From the NCBI GenBank assembly GCA_015062585.1, contig SUUJ01000003.1, positions 1-64,000 of the forward strand: 64,000 nt of DNA, written 5' to 3'. The translations under genes were made by a program, and so were the position numbers. Source of the DNA: Alphaproteobacteria bacterium (GTDB lineage: Bacteria; Pseudomonadota; Alphaproteobacteria; RF32; CAG-239). This document shows, one piece after another, positions 2,044 to 24,138 of this stretch (position 1 is its first letter; each line of letters opens with the position of its first letter). The notes below the pieces were generated by a model, which saw only the letters and a program-made list of their open reading frames with translations, searched no databases and was not told where the DNA came from.

Positions 2044-2515
2044 ATAAAAAAACCACCCTTTTGGGTGGTTTTTTTCATTAGTCCTTGCTTGCCTGCGAAC
2101 AGGCGGCCAACGGGAGCCTTGTTCGGAGTGGATAGTTGGTGAAAACAAACATTGAGCTTAGCAACTTGCTTAGCGAAATGTGCAGTTTGAACCTTACGAC
2201 ACGAGGAGGACCCGCTTGCGGGAGTACCCAATCAGGCAGCCGGAGCCAATAAAAAACCACCCAACAAGGTGGTTTTTTTATTGGTCCTTGCTTGCCTGCG
2301 AACAGGCGAAGCCTGTGAAGAATCAGCTCGAGGATAAAAACAACAATTGCTCTTGTTGTTTTTACCACAAGAGGCGTCGTTTTGTTATTTTTTTGAGCCG
2401 GTGTAAATCGGCGATAAAAACATTACAAAACAAGTGACCGACGCGCACTTGGCGAACAAAGTGAGCCTAGTAAGCTAGAAGCCGGAGCCAACCCAACAGG
2501 GTGGTTTTTTTTATT
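2025..2515. repeat. tRNA-Asn 3'-end plus terminator repeat cluster (three graded copies)
   Basis: AATCAGGCAGCCGGAGCCAATAAAAAA(A)CCACCC...GGTGGTTTTTTT...GTCCTTGCTTGCCTGCGAACAGGCG occurs at 2025-2107 and again at 2230-2310; degenerate third copy GCCGGAGCCAACCCAACAGGGTGGTTTTTTTTATTGGC at about 2481-2518. Confidence 0.9.
2044..2076 (+). terminator. Rho-independent terminator after tRNA-Asn
   Basis: AAAAAAACCACCCTTTTGGGTGGTTTTTTT. Confidence 0.85.
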
Positions 2516-16503: not shown

Positions 16504-16611
16504 CGTATTATCCTCCTGTATATTAAGTGTTATCTGAAATTATAGTATCATATAATTAATTTTTAGTCAAAAAATATTTAGGCTCGTTTCAAAACTATAC
16601 TATGGAAGTGA

Positions 16612-16675
16612 GTTCGAAGATATTGTAAAATAAGCCTTCAAAATATGTTCATCTTCGAACCAATCTAATTGCTTG
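16612..16675. repeat. Inverted repeat GTTCGAAGAT...ATCTTCGAAC plus interspersed repeat
   Basis: GTTCGAAGATATTGTAAAATAAGCCTTCAAAATATGTTCATCTTCGAACCAATCTAATTGCTTG; half-copies GTTCGAAGATGTTGTAAAATAG also at about 21199 and 23872. Confidence 0.85.
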
Positions 16676-16771
16676 TAAAATAACAAACTTCTCTTAGCTT
16701 TGCGAGGGTTTACCCAAAGCAAAGGTTAGTTGTTCGCGTAAGTAGGAAGATAAAATCTTCCGTAGCGACGC

Positions 16772-16798
16772 AAAAAGTCGCCCTTAAAGGCGACTTTT
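16772..16798. terminator. Hairpin with A/T tracts (terminator-like)
   Basis: AAAAAGTCGCCCTTAAAGGCGACTTTT. Confidence 0.7.
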
Positions 16799-16841
16799 GA
16801 ACTCTGGCCGGAGACAACTTGCAATCCTCGAGATAAATAGA

Positions 16842-17633
16842 CTACTTTTTCTTACAAATATATAACAAATGCGCACTATATCCTTGTTGATCAATACGCT
16901 CACAAGTTAGAAAATGCCATTTTACAAAAGCATCATAATCTTTTTTAGATAGTTGTTCCACCCATTCTCTCATAGCATATGCTATACCATCAGTGGCCAC
17001 ATTAGTAATATATTTTGTATTTGTTTTATCAAATAGCTTCTTAAAATCTTCAATATGAAAAGCATTAAATATTTCTTCCGGAATATCCTTAAAACGTCCG
17101 GCATTATCCATTACTTCATCTAAACGAGAAACTGCTTGGTGACGTAAACCATAACCGGTCATTAACGAAGCACAAGGAAGATATGCAAACATACATATTG
17201 CTCCTCTTTTAGCAACACGTAAAGTTTCACTGATAGCTTTATTTTTATCTTTTTTATTAAATAAATGATACATAGGCCCCAAATTTAAAACCATGTCAAA
17301 AGTTTTATCTTTAAGCATACTCAAATCCAAAGCATCACCGATCATACACTCAAAATTTTTTAATCGTTTGCTTTTAGATTTCATTACTTCAACATTTTTA
17401 GGAGTAAGGTCAACAGCAGTAACATCATATCCCATCTTAGCTAAAGTAATAGAATAACGTCCGGTTGCTGCACCAATTTCCAATATTTTAGCACCGGGTT
17501 TTAGAAATTTTTGAATATAACGCATAGTTGTCAGATATTCTAAATTGTGCCCTCTATCACTAACCAAACGCTCATCTTCATTGTATTCGGTATATTTATT
17601 TATGATTATGTCTTTATGTTTATTTACAGCCAT
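16842..17633 (-). CDS. Class I SAM-dependent methyltransferase
   Basis: ILEIGAATGRYSITLAKMGYDVTAVDLTPKNVEVMKSK...FDMVLNLGPMYHL. Confidence 0.88.
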   Translation of the reverse strand: MAVNKHKDIIINKYTEYNEDERLVSDRGHNLEYLTTMRYIQKFLKPGAKILEIGAATGRYSITLAKMGYDVTAVDLTPKNVEVMKSKSKRLKNFECMIGDALDLSMLKDKTFDMVLNLGPMYHLFNKKDKNKAISETLRVAKRGAICMFAYLPCASLMTGYGLRHQAVSRLDEVMDNAGRFKDIPEEIFNAFHIEDFKKLFDKTNTKYITNVATDGIAYAMREWVEQLSKKDYDAFVKWHFLTCERIDQQGYSAHLLYICKKK

Positions 17634-17707
17634 TGCGTACCTCTCATAATATAGTATTTCAAATATTAAAACATAAATTATTCATAAATCAATTTATTAT
17701 TTTATTC

Positions 17708-17782
17708 AACCTATGCAAAAATTCACATAGGTTCATTTTATGCTCAAAAAAAGGCTAAAATTTGCTAAGTTATTGAAAAGCA
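17708..17782. repeat. Partial copy of AT-rich interspersed repeat
   Basis: AACCTATGCAAAAATTCACATAGGTTC...TGCTCAAAAAAAGGCTAAAATTTGCTAAGTTATTGAAAA, also at about 21115-21186 and (diverged) 23789-23860. Confidence 0.85.
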
Positions 17783-17846
17783 TTGAAAATCTAATTTATT
17801 TCTGTAATAATTTATCTGAGTTAAACAAAGACCTAATGGGAATAAT

Positions 17847-18665
17847 ATGTTCAAACTAATTGATTTTGATGATAAAATTTTCACTTCTCAACAATTTAGG
17901 AAAGACGAAATTTCGTTTAATCTAATTCTTACATTGATACAAAAACGGGAATATTATCCTCAAATCAAGTGTTATTCTGACCAAAAAGATGTCATAATTT
18001 TAAATACAGATGCTAATCATCCAGTCGTTGTTTGGACAAGTGAAAATTTTAATGATTTTGAATTAATTTATAATTTTGTAAGTAAAGTTTTTTCTAAAAA
18101 CGAACCTTTAAGCCTTACTGCTAAACAATCTTGTTATCAATTTTTTCAGAAAAGAAACTGGGTTTCAGATGATGAAAATACAAAAATTCTTGGTGTTTAT
18201 AAATTAGATAAACTGATAGATATTGAAAAACAAGGATATCTTGATTGTGTAAAATCAACAGATGTTGAAATAGTTGCCAATATGATAAAAGCTTTTGAAG
18301 AAGATGCGCTACCTGAAGAAAAACATCCTTTTTCTTATTATTTAGAGCAAGCAAATAAATATACCACACTTACTTATACTCACAAAGTATGGAAAAATGA
18401 AAATGGAAATATTGTTAGTATTGGACATATAAATAACTCTGAAAACACAGGAAGAATAGGACAAATATATACTGTTCCAACAGAAAGAGGTAAATCTTAT
18501 GCCAAAATGTTGGTTGTAGAATTAGCAAAAATTACGTTAAAAAATAATTTAATGCCAGTTTTATATACTAATTTTCAATATGAACCATCAAATAAATGTT
18601 ATCAAGCAGTTGGATTTGAATTATTGAATACAATATATACTTACTCAGTAAAAAAGATTGCATAA
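17847..18665 (+). CDS. GNAT-family N-acetyltransferase
   Basis: C-terminal GRIGQIYTVPTERGKSYAKMLVVELAKITLKNNLMPVLYTNFQYEPSNKCYQAVGFELL; GNAT motif A/B pattern. Confidence 0.8.
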   Translation: MFKLIDFDDKIFTSQQFRKDEISFNLILTLIQKREYYPQIKCYSDQKDVIILNTDANHPVVVWTSENFNDFELIYNFVSKVFSKNEPLSLTAKQSCYQFFQKRNWVSDDENTKILGVYKLDKLIDIEKQGYLDCVKSTDVEIVANMIKAFEEDALPEEKHPFSYYLEQANKYTTLTYTHKVWKNENGNIVSIGHINNSENTGRIGQIYTVPTERGKSYAKMLVVELAKITLKNNLMPVLYTNFQYEPSNKCYQAVGFELLNTIYTYSVKKIA

Positions 18666-18723
18666 ACATTTTTTAATTAAATATTTTTTATTTAACCAAA
18701 GAACAAGTCCAGATGATAAGAGG

Positions 18724-19563
18724 TTATCTAACAATTGTTAAAAATGTTTTTTGCCCAACTGTTTTATTTATTGGTTTTTCAATGTAATTAAGCATATTTT
18801 GAATGCGTTCTATATGTTTTTCTGAACTTGGTATGTTCTCCGTCAGATATTTTTTCATTTTCGGAGCAATCTTTCTAAAACAAGCTTTGGCGCTTTGTCC
18901 TTGAGCAATATCTTTGTTTTCTTCTCTGTCTTTTAAACAAACGGATAATGCATCCAATAATTCTTCATTACTATACATTTTGGAAAATACCGAAAACATA
19001 ATAGATATATCTCTTATGTTTTTTTGGTTTTTTTCGTTATCTTTAAAATTTAAGATGGCAACTTCGCATATTTTATTAGCCAGTTGATAATCAGGTCTTG
19101 TTACATAAAAAGAATTTCCTCGTTCGGTTGTTATTTTGGATATTTTATGGGTTATTTTATGTTCATCTGATAAATCATCCCAGCAATAGCCATAAAAATT
19201 TCCGCTAAATTGTTTACAAAATTCTCCGGCATTAGGAACGGATTCCATAATACTACGAGATGACAGACTTCCTTTTTTTGATGCTAGACAATACATCGTA
19301 TCATTTTCTTTAATAGTAATTACATCAATGTCACCTGTTTGACGAGGAAAATATTTTTGTAAGAATTTTCTATCTTCATCGTTAACAGATATTTTTTCTT
19401 TTTCAGAAGCTGTATCTTCTATAGAAACTGCATTACAGGTCAACATTGTTGCTATTGAGCCGGCAAAATAATACCGAAGATTATCTTCTGTATCTAAATG
19501 AGGAGCATTTTCTATAGTATAAGACGCAAAGTTTTCCGCAATATCTTGAATTTCTGCGACCAT
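18724..19563 (-). CDS. Hypothetical protein, possibly nucleotidyltransferase-fold (AbiEii/DUF1814-like)
   Basis: YYFAGSIATML (G-S) and later GDIDVI (D-x-D) followed by TRPDYQLANKICEVAILNF...RDISIMFSVFSKM; resembles the NTase GS...DxD and lineage-typical K/RD positions. Assignment by eye only. Confidence 0.4.
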   Translation of the reverse strand: MVAEIQDIAENFASYTIENAPHLDTEDNLRYYFAGSIATMLTCNAVSIEDTASEKEKISVNDEDRKFLQKYFPRQTGDIDVITIKENDTMYCLASKKGSLSSRSIMESVPNAGEFCKQFSGNFYGYCWDDLSDEHKITHKISKITTERGNSFYVTRPDYQLANKICEVAILNFKDNEKNQKNIRDISIMFSVFSKMYSNEELLDALSVCLKDREENKDIAQGQSAKACFRKIAPKMKKYLTENIPSSEKHIERIQNMLNYIEKPINKTVGQKTFLTIVR

Positions 19564-19690
19564 GAATTTATCCTATTTTACAATTTATTATCTTTAATTT
19601 TATGCTATTTTTACGCTTAAATCAATATCAATTTATGATTTTCGGCGGCAAATTGCCTTAAACAGTTGGAAACAACATTCAGTTTGCGAA

Positions 19691-20869
19691 CTAATTTACA
19701 TCACCCAGCACTATTGTTTCTTTAATGTCTTTTATGTTTTTCAAATACGGTATAATTGCTTTAGGATAAAAATCTGAATCTTCCAGTTTGTTTAAGTCTA
19801 TCCATTTTATTTTCTGCTCGTTGCTATCCGGTTCAAAACCGTTACCTAGAGTTGAAAAATCCATCACTTCACATTCAAACATCAGCTCAGACAAATGAAA
19901 ACAATCTAAATCGTATGGCTGATTATGATTTTTTGCAATATAATCACGAGCCAAAACCAAACGCAAAGGTTTTACATCAAGATTAAGCTCTTCTTTGCAT
20001 TCTCTTATAATAGCTTCTTGCATGGTTTCGCCCCATTCATGACCACCACCCGGCAACTTAGAATAGCGACCACGTCCATAATCGACACTCACTGTCAATA
20101 ATTTATTGTCTTTGATAATTATTGCTTTGACCGAATGCTTAAAAAACTTATCCATAACTATATTTGTAACACTTTGTAGGGATTTTAATTTACTTACCTG
20201 CATATAGTTAATAATATCCTTAAAACCATCAAAAACGAGCAAAGGTAATTCCGAATTTATCTTATCTCTAACATATCCATCTTCCATAAATTTGCCATTA
20301 CCGAGTAAAATTGGTTGAACTCTTGCATTGTATGCGCATTCAGTATCTTGTTTGCTATCGCCTATTAACCAAACATTATCTTTGTTTATTTCATATGATA
20401 CATCATTCAGCGCCTCAAAAACAGGTGCCGGATTTGGCTTATTTAGAGTGGCATCTCCATTTCCTAGAATTTTCTTAAATGATATATTCGGAAAACAGAA
20501 CGCAACCTCTTTTAACAATAAAGACTTTTCTTTATTTGAAATTATATACAAATCTATTTTCTTTTGATTACATAATTTAAGAAACTCATTAGCATTTTCC
20601 ATCGGAAAAACTTTATTATAGGTATATTCTGTATAATATTTTAAATATTCACTATAAGCCCTATTAGCGTCTTCGCCAAAAAAGTTAGGAAAATTCTCTT
20701 TTAATGATTTTTTTGCATCTCTATATTTAACTTTTATAATATCCCAAGGTTCTTTATTATACTTATTTAAAACATACTCCATAGCCTCAACAACAGCATT
20801 TCGTGTATGAGCGAGCGTATCATCCCAATCTAATAAAATAGCTTTTGGCATATTAGATATTTTTTTCAT
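19691..20869 (-). CDS. HAD hydrolase / Nudix hydrolase fusion
   Basis: N-terminal AILLDWDDTLAHTRNAVVEA...VWLIGDSKQDTECAYNA (HAD); C-terminal Nudix box GGGHEWGETMQEAIIRECKEELNL. Confidence 0.88.
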   Translation of the reverse strand: MKKISNMPKAILLDWDDTLAHTRNAVVEAMEYVLNKYNKEPWDIIKVKYRDAKKSLKENFPNFFGEDANRAYSEYLKYYTEYTYNKVFPMENANEFLKLCNQKKIDLYIISNKEKSLLLKEVAFCFPNISFKKILGNGDATLNKPNPAPVFEALNDVSYEINKDNVWLIGDSKQDTECAYNARVQPILLGNGKFMEDGYVRDKINSELPLLVFDGFKDIINYMQVSKLKSLQSVTNIVMDKFFKHSVKAIIIKDNKLLTVSVDYGRGRYSKLPGGGHEWGETMQEAIIRECKEELNLDVKPLRLVLARDYIAKNHNQPYDLDCFHLSELMFECEVMDFSTLGNGFEPDSNEQKIKWIDLNKLEDSDFYPKAIIPYLKNIKDIKETIVLGDVN

Positions 20870-21086: not shown

Positions 21087-21400
21087 AACCTTTTACATAG
21101 CCATGTCAAAAGTCAAACCTATGCAAAAATTTACATAGGTTCTTTTTCTGCTCAAAAAAGGCTGAAATTTGCTAAGTTATTGAAAAAATAAAAAGCAAGT
21201 TCGAAGATGTTGTAAAATAGGTGGCTGGATTAGGTACTCTCGCTCAAAATTTCGCGGGTCCTCCTCGCGTCGTAGGGCTCGCACGGCTTAAAATTGTGCT
21301 CACCAACTATCCGCTCCGAACCAAGTTGATTCGCCTTAAAACCACTCTCAATCCAACAAAAAAATCCTCCATGAAAGGAGGATTTTTTTGTTGGCTGGAG
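21087..21400. repeat. About 310-bp composite repeat carrying a tRNA-Gln 3'-end fragment (left copy)
   Basis: Aligns along its length with 23758-24070; contains GTTCGAAGATGTTGTAAAATAGGTGGCTGGATT then GGTACTCTCGC...GCGGGTCCTCCTCGCGTCG...CCAACTATCCGCTCCGAACC, ending in CCAACAAAAAAATCCTCC...GGAGGATTTTTTTGTTGG. Confidence 0.93.
21354..21395. terminator. 18-bp perfect-stem hairpin with A/T tracts (bidirectional terminator-like)
   Basis: CCAACAAAAAAATCCTCC-ATGAAA-GGAGGATTTTTTTGTTGG. Confidence 0.85.
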
Positions 21401-21548
21401 ACGATGTGCAATCCTCGAGTAAGTTGTTATTGGTTGTAACATAATATTTTTTATAATTTTAATGTTTTGTTAGAGGTTTGTTAACCTGAAAATAACTGTT
21501 TTTTTTATACATTTAATATAAATTGATGTATGTATAAAGGTATTCATT

Positions 21549-23447
21549 ATGGCAAAACAGGAAGCAAAAACAGATTTATGGGTGTATGATTTATTAAAAG
21601 AAGCTGGTATTTGTCTTGACCCACAAGGATGTTCAATTAAAGAAGTTGATGAAGCACTAAAAACTGCTTCTAAAAAAGGTACTGGTAATGTTGGTTATCC
21701 TGAATATGTCGGTGCTGTCAAAGATTTTTTGCTTGTTATAGAAGATAAATCTGATTTATCAAAACATGTAAAGTATAACGAAAAAGAGTTAATATGTACT
21801 GAAACAAAGTCTGTAACAGATTATGCAGTCAATGGGGCTTATTTCTATGGTAAGCACCTTATAAATAATACTCACTACAAAAAGATTATTGCCTTTGGTG
21901 TATCTGGTAATGAAAAACATCATAAAATAACACCTCTCTTTATAAATGAACGTGAATATTGCAAAGTAATGCCTGATGTTGAATCTTTCTATATCTTCAA
22001 TGAAGAAAACATAGATGAATATTACACTAGAGAAGTTTTAGGCGAAAATACCGATTTACAGAAAGAAACTACTGAAATTCTTAAGTTTGCAAAGAATCTA
22101 CATGAAGATTTACGCAATTATGGAAACTTGCAAGATACTCAAAAACCTCTTGTTGTATCTGGTATATTACTTGCTCTTAGAGAGATTGAGAAAGGCTCTT
22201 TTAATCTTGAGCAATTAAACGGTGATGATGTAGATACAGACGGTAACAAGATTTATGCAGCTATTGATAAAAATCTTCAACGCTCAAAAGTATCACCAAC
22301 AGTCAAGAAAGATAAACTATTAACACAATTTGCAGTCATAAGAGATACTAAAATCCTTAATGAAAAGAACGAAACATTAGGAAAAACACCTCTTAAATAC
22401 TATGCAGAACAAATTTATGATAATATCTACAAAACTATAAAATACACAAAAACAGCAGAAGATTATTTAGGCCGATTCTACGGTGAATTTATGAGTTATT
22501 CTGGTGGTGATGGACAAACGTTAGGTATTATTCTTACTCCAAAACATATTACTCAACTGTTTTGTGATTTGGTAGATTTAAAACCTGATGATGTCGTGCT
22601 TGACCCTTGTTGTGGTACAGCTGGATTCCTTATTGCAGCAATGCATAATATGTTGAAGAAAGCTAAAGATGATAATCAGAGGGAAAATATTCGTAAAAAC
22701 CAACTTCATGGTATTGAACTTCAACCATATATGTTTACTATTGCTACATCAAATATGATTATTCGTGGTGATGGTAAGAGTAACCTTGTAGATGAAGATT
22801 TCTTAAGGTGTAAAGATTCAGAATTACAATTAAAAGGTGCAACTGTCGGTATGATGAATCCACCATATAGTCAAGGTTCAAAAGCTAACCCCTCACTTTA
22901 TGAAATAAGTTTTGTTGAACACTTGTTAGATTCATTGGCCGAAGATGGTAAAGCGATTGTAATTATTCCTCAATCTTCTTTAACTGGTAAGACAAAAGAT
23001 GAGCAAAACTATAAGGAAAGCATATTAAAACATCATACCTTAGAAGGCGTTATAACTTTAAGTGAAAATACATTTTTTGGAGTAGGTGTGCATACTTGTA
23101 TTGCAATTTTTACTGCACATAAACCTCATCCCGTTAACAAAGAGTGTAAATTTATAAATTTCAAAAACGATGGTTTCAAAGTCGCTCCGCACGTTGGATT
23201 GATAGAGACAGAATATGCTAAAGACAAGAAACAACATCTACTTGACGTGTGGTTTGATAGAATTAATGCCCCAATTGATTTTATAGTTAAATCTACAATT
23301 AAACCAGATGATGAATGGCTTCACTCTTTTTATTATTTTAATGATGAAATTCCTGATGAAAATTACTTTGAACAAGCAATAACAGATTACTTAACATTTG
23401 AATTTGAAAAAGTTATCATCAGCCGAAAATTGAATAAAGTCTTTTAA
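21549..23447 (+). CDS. Type I/IIG-like restriction-modification protein: nuclease-like (HsdR_N-like) N-terminus plus N6-adenine DNA methylase; C-terminus probably truncated
   Basis: N-terminus ...DFLLVIEDKSDL (possible PD-(D/E)xK); DVVLDPCCGTAGFLIAAMHNMLKKA and MNPPYSQG (N6-MTase motifs I and IV). No specificity domain in the ORF. Confidence 0.88.
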   Translation: MAKQEAKTDLWVYDLLKEAGICLDPQGCSIKEVDEALKTASKKGTGNVGYPEYVGAVKDFLLVIEDKSDLSKHVKYNEKELICTETKSVTDYAVNGAYFYGKHLINNTHYKKIIAFGVSGNEKHHKITPLFINEREYCKVMPDVESFYIFNEENIDEYYTREVLGENTDLQKETTEILKFAKNLHEDLRNYGNLQDTQKPLVVSGILLALREIEKGSFNLEQLNGDDVDTDGNKIYAAIDKNLQRSKVSPTVKKDKLLTQFAVIRDTKILNEKNETLGKTPLKYYAEQIYDNIYKTIKYTKTAEDYLGRFYGEFMSYSGGDGQTLGIILTPKHITQLFCDLVDLKPDDVVLDPCCGTAGFLIAAMHNMLKKAKDDNQRENIRKNQLHGIELQPYMFTIATSNMIIRGDGKSNLVDEDFLRCKDSELQLKGATVGMMNPPYSQGSKANPSLYEISFVEHLLDSLAEDGKAIVIIPQSSLTGKTKDEQNYKESILKHHTLEGVITLSENTFFGVGVHTCIAIFTAHKPHPVNKECKFINFKNDGFKVAPHVGLIETEYAKDKKQHLLDVWFDRINAPIDFIVKSTIKPDDEWLHSFYYFNDEIPDENYFEQAITDYLTFEFEKVIISRKLNKVF

Positions 23448-23687
23448 TGTTCCTTGCGGGATATACCAACGTTTTGAGTTGTTTTCGCCAATTTCTTCAA
23501 CAACTTGAGGAAATCGACTTAATATCATATCTCGCATGCGTTCGGCAGTTCTTCTTGATACTTGAAAGCGATTCATAATATCTGACAAACTAATTCCTCC
23601 GCGAGTTGATTGCATCCAAATCGCTAAATCTAACAAATCAAAAGTCTTTTCATATGCCATAATATTCATCCTATATAAAACATACAT
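23391..23687 (-). pseudogene. Truncated HTH (WYL-type) transcriptional regulator, N-terminal fragment
   Basis: MAYEKTFDLLDLAIWMQSTRGGISLSDIMNRFQVSRRTAERMRDMILSRFPQVVEEIGENNSKRWYIPQGTL...; typical N-terminus of WYL regulators, which are normally about 300 aa. Last codons are antisense to the methylase gene. Confidence 0.65.
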
Positions 23688-23757
23688 TTAGGTTACGACA
23701 TATTTTGACATAGTAAATAATGCAAATGTTTTTATTAACAATAATGTATTGCTAAAT

Positions 23758-24070
23758 AACCTTTCACATAGCTATGTCAGAAGTTCAACCTTTGCGAATT
23801 TTTGCAGAGGTTCATTTATATACTAAAAAAAGGCTGAAATTGGTTAAATTATTGAAAAATATAAAAAGCAAGTTCGAAGATGTTGTAAAATAGGTGGCTG
23901 GATTGGGTACTCCCGCTCAAAAATTCGCGGGTCCTCCTCGCGTCGTTAAGGTTCGCACGGCTTAAAATTGTGCTCACCAACTATCCGCTCCGAACCGAAT
24001 TGATTCGCCTCAAAACAACACTATCCAACAAAAAAATCCTCCATAAAAGGAGGACTTTTTTGTTGGCTGG
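23758..24070. repeat. About 310-bp composite repeat (right copy), abutting tRNA-Gln
   Basis: GGTGGCTGGATT at 23893-23904 duplicates the tRNA-Gln 3' region at 24071-24082; shared core with 21087-21400. Confidence 0.93.
24023..24066. terminator. Terminator-like hairpin downstream of tRNA-Gln
   Basis: CCAACAAAAAAATCCTCCATAAAAGGAGGACTTTTTTGTTGG. Confidence 0.8.
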
Positions 24071-24138
24071 GGTGGCTGGATTCGAACCAACGAATGACGA
24101 TACCAAAAACCGTTGCCTTACCACTTGGCGACACCCCA
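24064..24138 (-). tRNA. tRNA-Gln (TTG)
   Basis: Reverse complement TGGGGTGTCGCCAAGTGGTAAGGCAACGGTTTTTGGTATCGTCATTCGTTGGTTCGAATCCAGCCACCCCAGCCA. Confidence 0.94.

Follow-up and report, generated by a model that had tools for sequence, protein, structure and literature searches.

Composite repeats of RtT-like units and module arms at a tRNA-Gln(UUG) gene that probably received modules one after another

Why is a restriction-methylase gene beside tRNA-Gln(UUG) in an uncultured gut bacterium bracketed by two direct repeats of about 310 bp? We addressed this question in a window of 64,000 nucleotides (contig SUUJ01000003.1) from a 1.5-Mb genome in 20 contigs. The original prediction, made from the letters of this window, saw in the repeats the trace of insertion at the tRNA gene. 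We favour, with good confidence, an explanation in two parts: each repeat would be a composite, in which a structured-RNA unit of RtT-like layout, with its copy of the tRNA-Gln tail, is joined to the tRNA-proximal arm of an integrated cargo module, and modules would have been added serially at the tRNA-Gln(UUG) 3' end with CCAGCCA as their common core. The restriction-enzyme gene is probably one of several such serial insertions at tRNA-Gln.

Composition of the repeat pair

We searched the genome with the right repeat as query. The results showed that 21087-21398 and 23758-24075 are 89% identical (E 7e-112), with gap-free sub-blocks at 81-96% identity, which bears out the predicted near end-to-end likeness of the two copies. 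As predicted, the right copy adjoins tRNA-Gln(UUG); it runs into the tRNA 3' end. The repeats had also been said to contain tRNA-Gln tails. This holds for the first 12 nt, which are present in both copies, while only the tRNA itself retains the whole tail AATCCAGCCACCCCAGCCA. Exact copies of GGTGGCTGGATT, the reverse complement of AATCCAGCCACC (tRNA-Gln nt 58-69), were found at 21220-21231, 23893-23904 and 24071-24082, the last one within the tRNA, and after these 12 nt both repeats continue with the element arm. CCAGCCA, the last 7 nt of tRNA-Gln, has a second copy next to the left terminator (Table 1).

Each repeat consists of an RtT-like unit of about 135 bp and an arm of an integrated element, also of about 135 bp. 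The unit begins with part of the tRNA tail in inverted form, continues with the T-arm half GGTTCG and a structured-RNA insert, and closes with the tail, which starts at T-loop nt 58. On the tRNA strand, the right repeat comprises a terminator hairpin, the inverted partial tail, GGTTCG, an insert of ~95 nt, AATCCAGCCACC, and an arm starting TATTTTACAACATCTTCGAACT; the left repeat is ordered likewise and is preceded by CTCGAGGATTGCACATCGTCT and CCAGCCA. The covariance model of the unit matched the right copy at 23901-23997 (89.9 bits) and the left copy at 21228-21323 (84 bits). The parts recur separately: the RNA insert at 5 further places in the genome, all of them tRNAs, and parts of the element arm at 17693-17779 and 16611-16630. 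At 17693-17779 the inner portion of the arm is present for a third time; this segment lies without a unit between the GNAT and methyltransferase genes, and is possibly an old module border.

We rejected the view that plain attachment-site duplication alone produced the 310 bp, because half of each repeat is a unit that is found elsewhere, at tRNAs without cargo. The interpretation of the whole repeats as tRNA duplication from one insertion was not supported for the same reason, and also because the units are polymorphic independently of the rest of the site, as a pair of related loci described below (L216 and L217) demonstrates.

Table 1. Features of the window, numbered from its first nucleotide
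Feature	Position	Strand	Detail
Class-1 RtT-like insert with intact 19-nt tail	2119..2248	+	Downstream of tRNA-Asn (1969-2043); covariance-model match 2119-2233
Alternative (A-form) arm of module 3	16611..16804	-	GAGTTCAAAAGTCG-terminator to block A-like TTTTACAATATCTTCGAACT
Module-2 end with degenerate core	16805..16832	-	CTCGAGGATTGCAAGTTGTCT (16812-16832), CCGGCCA (16805-16811)
Module-2 cargo	16842..20869		HAD-NUDIX 19691-20869 (-); ORF 18724-19563 (-); GNAT 17847-18665 (+); methyltransferase 16842-17633 (-)
Left element arm, tRNA-proximal end of module 2	21087..21219	-	Block A at 21198-21217
Left RtT-like unit, subtype b	21220..21352	-	Tail nt 58-69 at 21220-21231
Left terminator-like hairpin	21353..21394		
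Module-1 end, then displaced CCAGCCA	21399..21419	-	CTCGAGGATTGCACATCGTCT; CCAGCCA at 21392-21398
Module-1 cargo: 632-aa type IIG restriction-methylase-like protein	21549..23447	+	PADLOC PDLC03602, E 1.7e-162; N6_Mtase
Module-1 cargo: 98-aa WYL-type HTH-like protein	23391..23687	-	PADLOC WYL, E 1.2e-5
Right element arm, tRNA-proximal end of module 1	23758..23892	-	Block A TTTTACAACATCTTCGAACT at 23871-23890, and palindrome
Right RtT-like unit, subtype a	23893..24024	-	Anti-tail, GGTTCG, class-1 RNA insert, tail nt 58-69 at 23893-23904
Palindromic intrinsic-terminator-like hairpin between tRNA and right unit	24025..24066		
Putative attachment core CCAGCCA	24064-24070		tRNA nt 70-76
tRNA-Gln(UUG), target gene	24064..24138	-	nt 58-76 (AATCCAGCCACCCCAGCCA) at 24064-24082

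RtT-like units at many tRNA genes

Seven sites of the genome match a 14-base core of the insert without mismatch, and every one of them lies downstream of a tRNA: Gln-UUG (two sites, the left one 2.7 kb away), Gln-CUG, Asn, Glu-UUC, and Thr-GGU (two sites). All 7 copies were recovered by the covariance model. We then compared the 19-nt tail of each of the 42 tRNAs with the 420 nt downstream of it. The results showed a copy of the tRNA's own tail (<=5/19 mismatches) downstream of 14 of the 42 and upstream of none; with Gln-CUG, Gln-UUG (cut tail) and Trp (6 mismatches) added, the count rises to about 17. The tail copies start at T-loop nt 58 and are preceded by one of several insert classes, of which class 1 is the window's (GGAGYGGATAGTTGG..GAGGAGGACCCGC..GCGGGAGTACCC), class 2 contains ACGGRAGTATGCC, and others exist as well, the classes other than class 1 having been assigned by reading and not by model. 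At tRNA-Asn in the window, no cargo lies between the tRNA and its unit. A second array was seen at tRNA-Gln(CUG) (L022, G000:C12 71500-86000), with unit fragments at 75.3, 75.5, 76.5 and 82.2 kb and, between them, a 234-aa ORF and transporter-like genes. At tRNA-Thr(UGU) (L034/L024), units of another insert class stand in tandem up to the end of contig C9.

Among the sampled relatives, 24 of 97 genomes, all of the window's family, contained the strict class-1 pattern, and the reversed control gave 0. A scan of GTDB contigs yielded 63 stretches, titled as uncultured (alpha)proteobacteria or Azospirillum/Rhodospirillales, several of which name gut or rumen samples. In a phylum-wide sample of 399 genomes under strict filters, only this genome had a class-1 match. 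The strict pattern had 0 matches in viral contigs, which left a phage origin of the class-1 insert without support. When 76 strict cores were examined, 57 had a same-strand tRNA upstream, nearly all within ~410 nt, and in 33 the tail matched the upstream tRNA over 17-20 nt with <20% mismatch. In many other class-1 cores the tail match is limited to the first 11-12 nt, and cores without an upstream tRNA lie mostly near contig ends or within islands. Applied to 296 genomes of the class, the covariance model added 3 further families, each directly 3' of a tRNA (Leu-CAA, Arg-CCG and Leu-CAA; L222-L224); for L222, ARAGORN overlooked the tRNA, which Rfam detected (locus L236). The association of these units with tRNA genes extends across species. 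An artefact of assembly or binning, to which a metagenome-assembled genome of 20 contigs, some ending in such repeats, might give rise, is highly improbable given that the equal architecture is present in many independently assembled genomes.

We aligned 37 class-1 units to examine their RNA structure. The consensus structure has 22 pairs, 11 of which are changed on both sides, and 97.7% of the cells are paired; this level was reached by 0 of 500 shuffles, and slid versions reached 35-57%. The predicted RNA fold of the insert is thus supported by covariation. The insert is absent from Rfam; permissive scans of the window region and 24 related loci returned tRNA, one weak RtT match, and otherwise scores far below gathering. 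The mean pairing of the anti-tail over the set was -13.4 with the unit's own tail and -11.7 with permuted tails (sd 0.46; 0/5000), while in several single units, including the window's right one, pairing with the own tail was no better than with other tails.

These data bear on whether the units could be relics of tRNA-integrated elements, that is, attachment-site debris without an RNA function. Elements that target tRNA genes carry segments of the type of tail nt 58-76, which is what such debris would contain, and the units do stand at a hotspot, some of them truncated or degenerate. However, the inserts are conserved with strong covariation in their RNA pairs, one insert occurs at different tRNAs, and the anti-tail follows the tail, so that we regard the relic explanation as improbable. 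If the units act as RNA, read-through from the tRNA promoter would transcribe them and the enzymes of tRNA processing would cut them, by analogy with RtT of E. coli; transcription of the unit is uncertain because terminators lie between it and the tRNA.

Module ends, cargo, and occupied and empty sites

The restriction-methylase-like protein of module 1 matches PDLC03602, a model of 637 positions, over residues 2-621, and the 98-aa WYL-type protein had no match in the Pfam search. The methylase failed as a marker of the module: it was found at tRNA-Gln in none of the other relatives, among which only distant homologues (34% and 30%) turned up. The 34% homologue, in G009, lies ~1.4 kb beyond an RtT-like unit of tRNA-Pro (L232, 897-1166 and downstream), a proximity that may be a coincidence. 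Beside the third boundary of the window, at 16687-16771, the arm of module 3 contains an 85-bp class-3 structured insert, 77% identical to the insert of a tRNA-Glu(CUC) unit (G000:C5:205960-206044).

We compared the tRNA-Gln hotspot in 20 relatives of the genus. The results showed that the cargo behind tRNA-Gln varies from genome to genome among sister species. At two loci (L205 and L210) a DUF6538/Phage_integrase protein starts within 125 nt of tRNA-Gln, and at a third (L213) a DUF6538-bearing frame with a split integrase stands there. At 10 boundaries in 6 genomes (window 2, L202 4, L203 1, L208 1, L216 1 and L217 1), CCAGCCA or CCGGCCA is preceded by CTCGAGGATTGCA..TCGTCT or a closely similar sequence. 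Beyond CCAGCCA comes an RtT-form start or else a different arm, which in most cases begins with GAGTTCAAAAGTCG and leads to block A. A recurrent end, CCAGCCA, and a following start or arm form the pattern expected if modules are added serially at a tRNA 3' end.

Empty versions of the site were also found. In G019 (L163/L208), two units lie in direct tandem, AATCCAGCCACC being followed by CCAGCCA, with no cargo between them. The window's right copy groups with the first of these units and its left copy with the second (GGATAGTGTGG-type versus GGATTGAGAGTGG; the differences are small), and in the window 2.5 kb of cargo separates subtypes a and b. Judged by its sequence, the G019 a-b tandem is an empty site. 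In another pair of loci (L216 versus L217), one unit is present or absent exactly between CCAGCCA and CATTGTGCAAAGG, the boundary being otherwise identical. As in tRNA-targeted integrative modules, a recurrent end thus lies beside a copy of the tRNA 3' end, and occupied sites with differing cargo exist alongside empty ones. Serial site-specific insertion at tRNA-Gln(UUG), one of the two routes originally proposed, is supported by the differing cargo of sister species, some with a downstream tyrosine integrase, by the recurrent module ends, and by the cargo-free tandem; the relatives are not uniform in arrangement or size.

An alternative that dispenses with a site-specific recombinase is tandem duplication of unit and arm, with the cargo inserted later or through homologous recombination between units. 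An 89% identity over 310 bp would offer a substrate for homologous recombination, both copies have the unusual junction of the 12-nt tail with TATTTTAC, which suggests copying, and cargo-free unit tandems are common. Module ends before CCAGCCA are nevertheless the same despite different species and cargo, and the coexistence of subtypes a and b in G019 indicates that the two copies are not a recent local duplication. We consider tandem duplication unlikely.

Serial addition in turn leaves the left side of the modules to be accounted for. The left junctions of modules 1 and 2 have neither CCAGCCA nor the initial ~90 bp of the arm in its usual form; they therefore show no clean attL, and the model has to invoke deletion or gene conversion as well. 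Either the missing sequence was lost by deletion or exchange after insertion, or the modules came with an RtT-form start. The genome encodes 2 tyrosine recombinases, both on contigs other than the window's, and none was found among the ORFs of modules 1 and 2.

In the mechanism that we propose, modules would have joined one by one at the tRNA-Gln(UUG) 3' end, with a DUF6538/phage-type tyrosine integrase presumably acting in trans, and duplicated tails may offer additional landing sites. A module may have been inserted into an a-b tandem, or each module may have brought its own unit.

Inserts in other hairpins and likeness to known systems

Inserts were also found outside tRNA tails. In G328 (L235, L240-L245), class-1 copies occupy the loops of REP-like palindromes, GTCATTGCCGGGCTTGA^..^CCCGGCAATCC or GTCAT..CCGG-(G/A)CTTGA^..^CCCGG..ATCC, and an empty palindrome adjoins one class-1 copy. 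A further insert is nested in the class-1 copies of L242-L245. At L202, the terminator loop of the arm was found with and without a structured insert of ~87 bp (arms after 1782 and ~6351 compared with those after 3329 and 7242), and L150 and L214 have identical flanks with different insert classes between them. These observations suggest, from sequence comparison, that the inserts move between hairpin loops.

The same observations raise the origin of the units, a matter compatible with serial accretion of modules. The inserts may be selfish structured elements that land in apical hairpin loops, tRNA units being one host type among others. The palindrome loops of G328, with an empty palindrome alongside one copy, the different insert classes in the common flanks of L214 and L150, and the L202 arms with and without an insert are all in keeping with this proposal. 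Against it, strict-pattern copies are mostly at tRNAs with matching tails, and neither a mobility enzyme nor target duplications came to light. We regard it as a tentative possibility, and treat mobility of the inserts as conjectural. A wider formulation, to which we likewise give somewhat less than even weight, is that small structured elements of classes 1, 2 and 3 graft into hairpin loops (the T-loop of duplicated tails, terminators, REP-like palindromes) and so build tRNA-tail RNA arrays, whose extra 3' ends would act as landing sites where defence and other modules pile up.

We then compared the units with RtT of E. coli (RF00391, rttR). In the tyrT repeats of E. coli MG1655, tRNA-Tyr and a trailer are followed by the inverted tail GCGGGGAAGGATGAG, AAGGTTCGA, an insert and AATCCTTCCCCCACCACCA; the annotated rttR RNA ends at the CCA of the repeat, and the Rfam RtT model pairs anti-tail with tail. 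Both systems share a position 3' of a tRNA, an inverted tail, a T-arm half (GGTTCGA in E. coli), an insert in the T-loop position, a 19-nt tail from nt 58 to CCA, a tandem array, and a closing stem in which anti-tail pairs with tail. In the window's Gln units the tail extends over nt 58-69 only. The closing stem is supported for the unit set; in several single units the own tail pairs no better than others. Unlike E. coli RtT, the class-1 insert is not recognised by RF00391, intrinsic terminators stand between tRNA and unit, units occur at many tRNAs of one genome, and cargo genes lie between units. With the gathering score of 45, RF00391 had no match in this genome; the sole match in relatives, at the tRNA-Pro unit of G009, scored 32.2 bits, below the threshold. 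By layout the window's units are RtT-like, and by Rfam score they are not RtT members. E. coli RtT has been reported to be released from the tRNA transcript (PMC4986893). In the open-access literature, our search brought up no relevant account of RtT-like or tRNA-tail repeats in bacteria other than Gammaproteobacteria.

The modules share with tRNA-targeted islands and tycheposons (PMC10872708) serial cargo modules at a tRNA 3' end, tRNA-end repeats at the borders, and tyrosine-type integrases, here in relatives. They differ in that the window modules are without an integrase, the core is 7 bp, and the module starts are fused to RtT-like units. Identity with a tycheposon, a large cargo transposon with a tRNA border and an internal xerD-type recombinase, was rejected, as no recombinase is among the module ORFs. 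The occupation of a REP-like loop by the G328 insert recalls REP palindromes as insertion targets (e.g. IS110/IS621, PMC11208160), but no transposase or transposon end was identified with it, and the insert is a structured RNA of ~100 nt.

Repeats of RtT type were already familiar in E. coli and its relatives. One alphaproteobacterial genome now shows their anatomy, with a different RNA that covaries, at up to ~17 of its 42 tRNA genes, and further families have it too. Occurring so widely, it represents an element of more general kind, and the many sites allow its origin to be studied by comparison. RtT-like repeats are also tied here to an insertion hotspot at a tRNA with restriction-modification cargo, and the occupied and empty sites make the mechanism of insertion testable.
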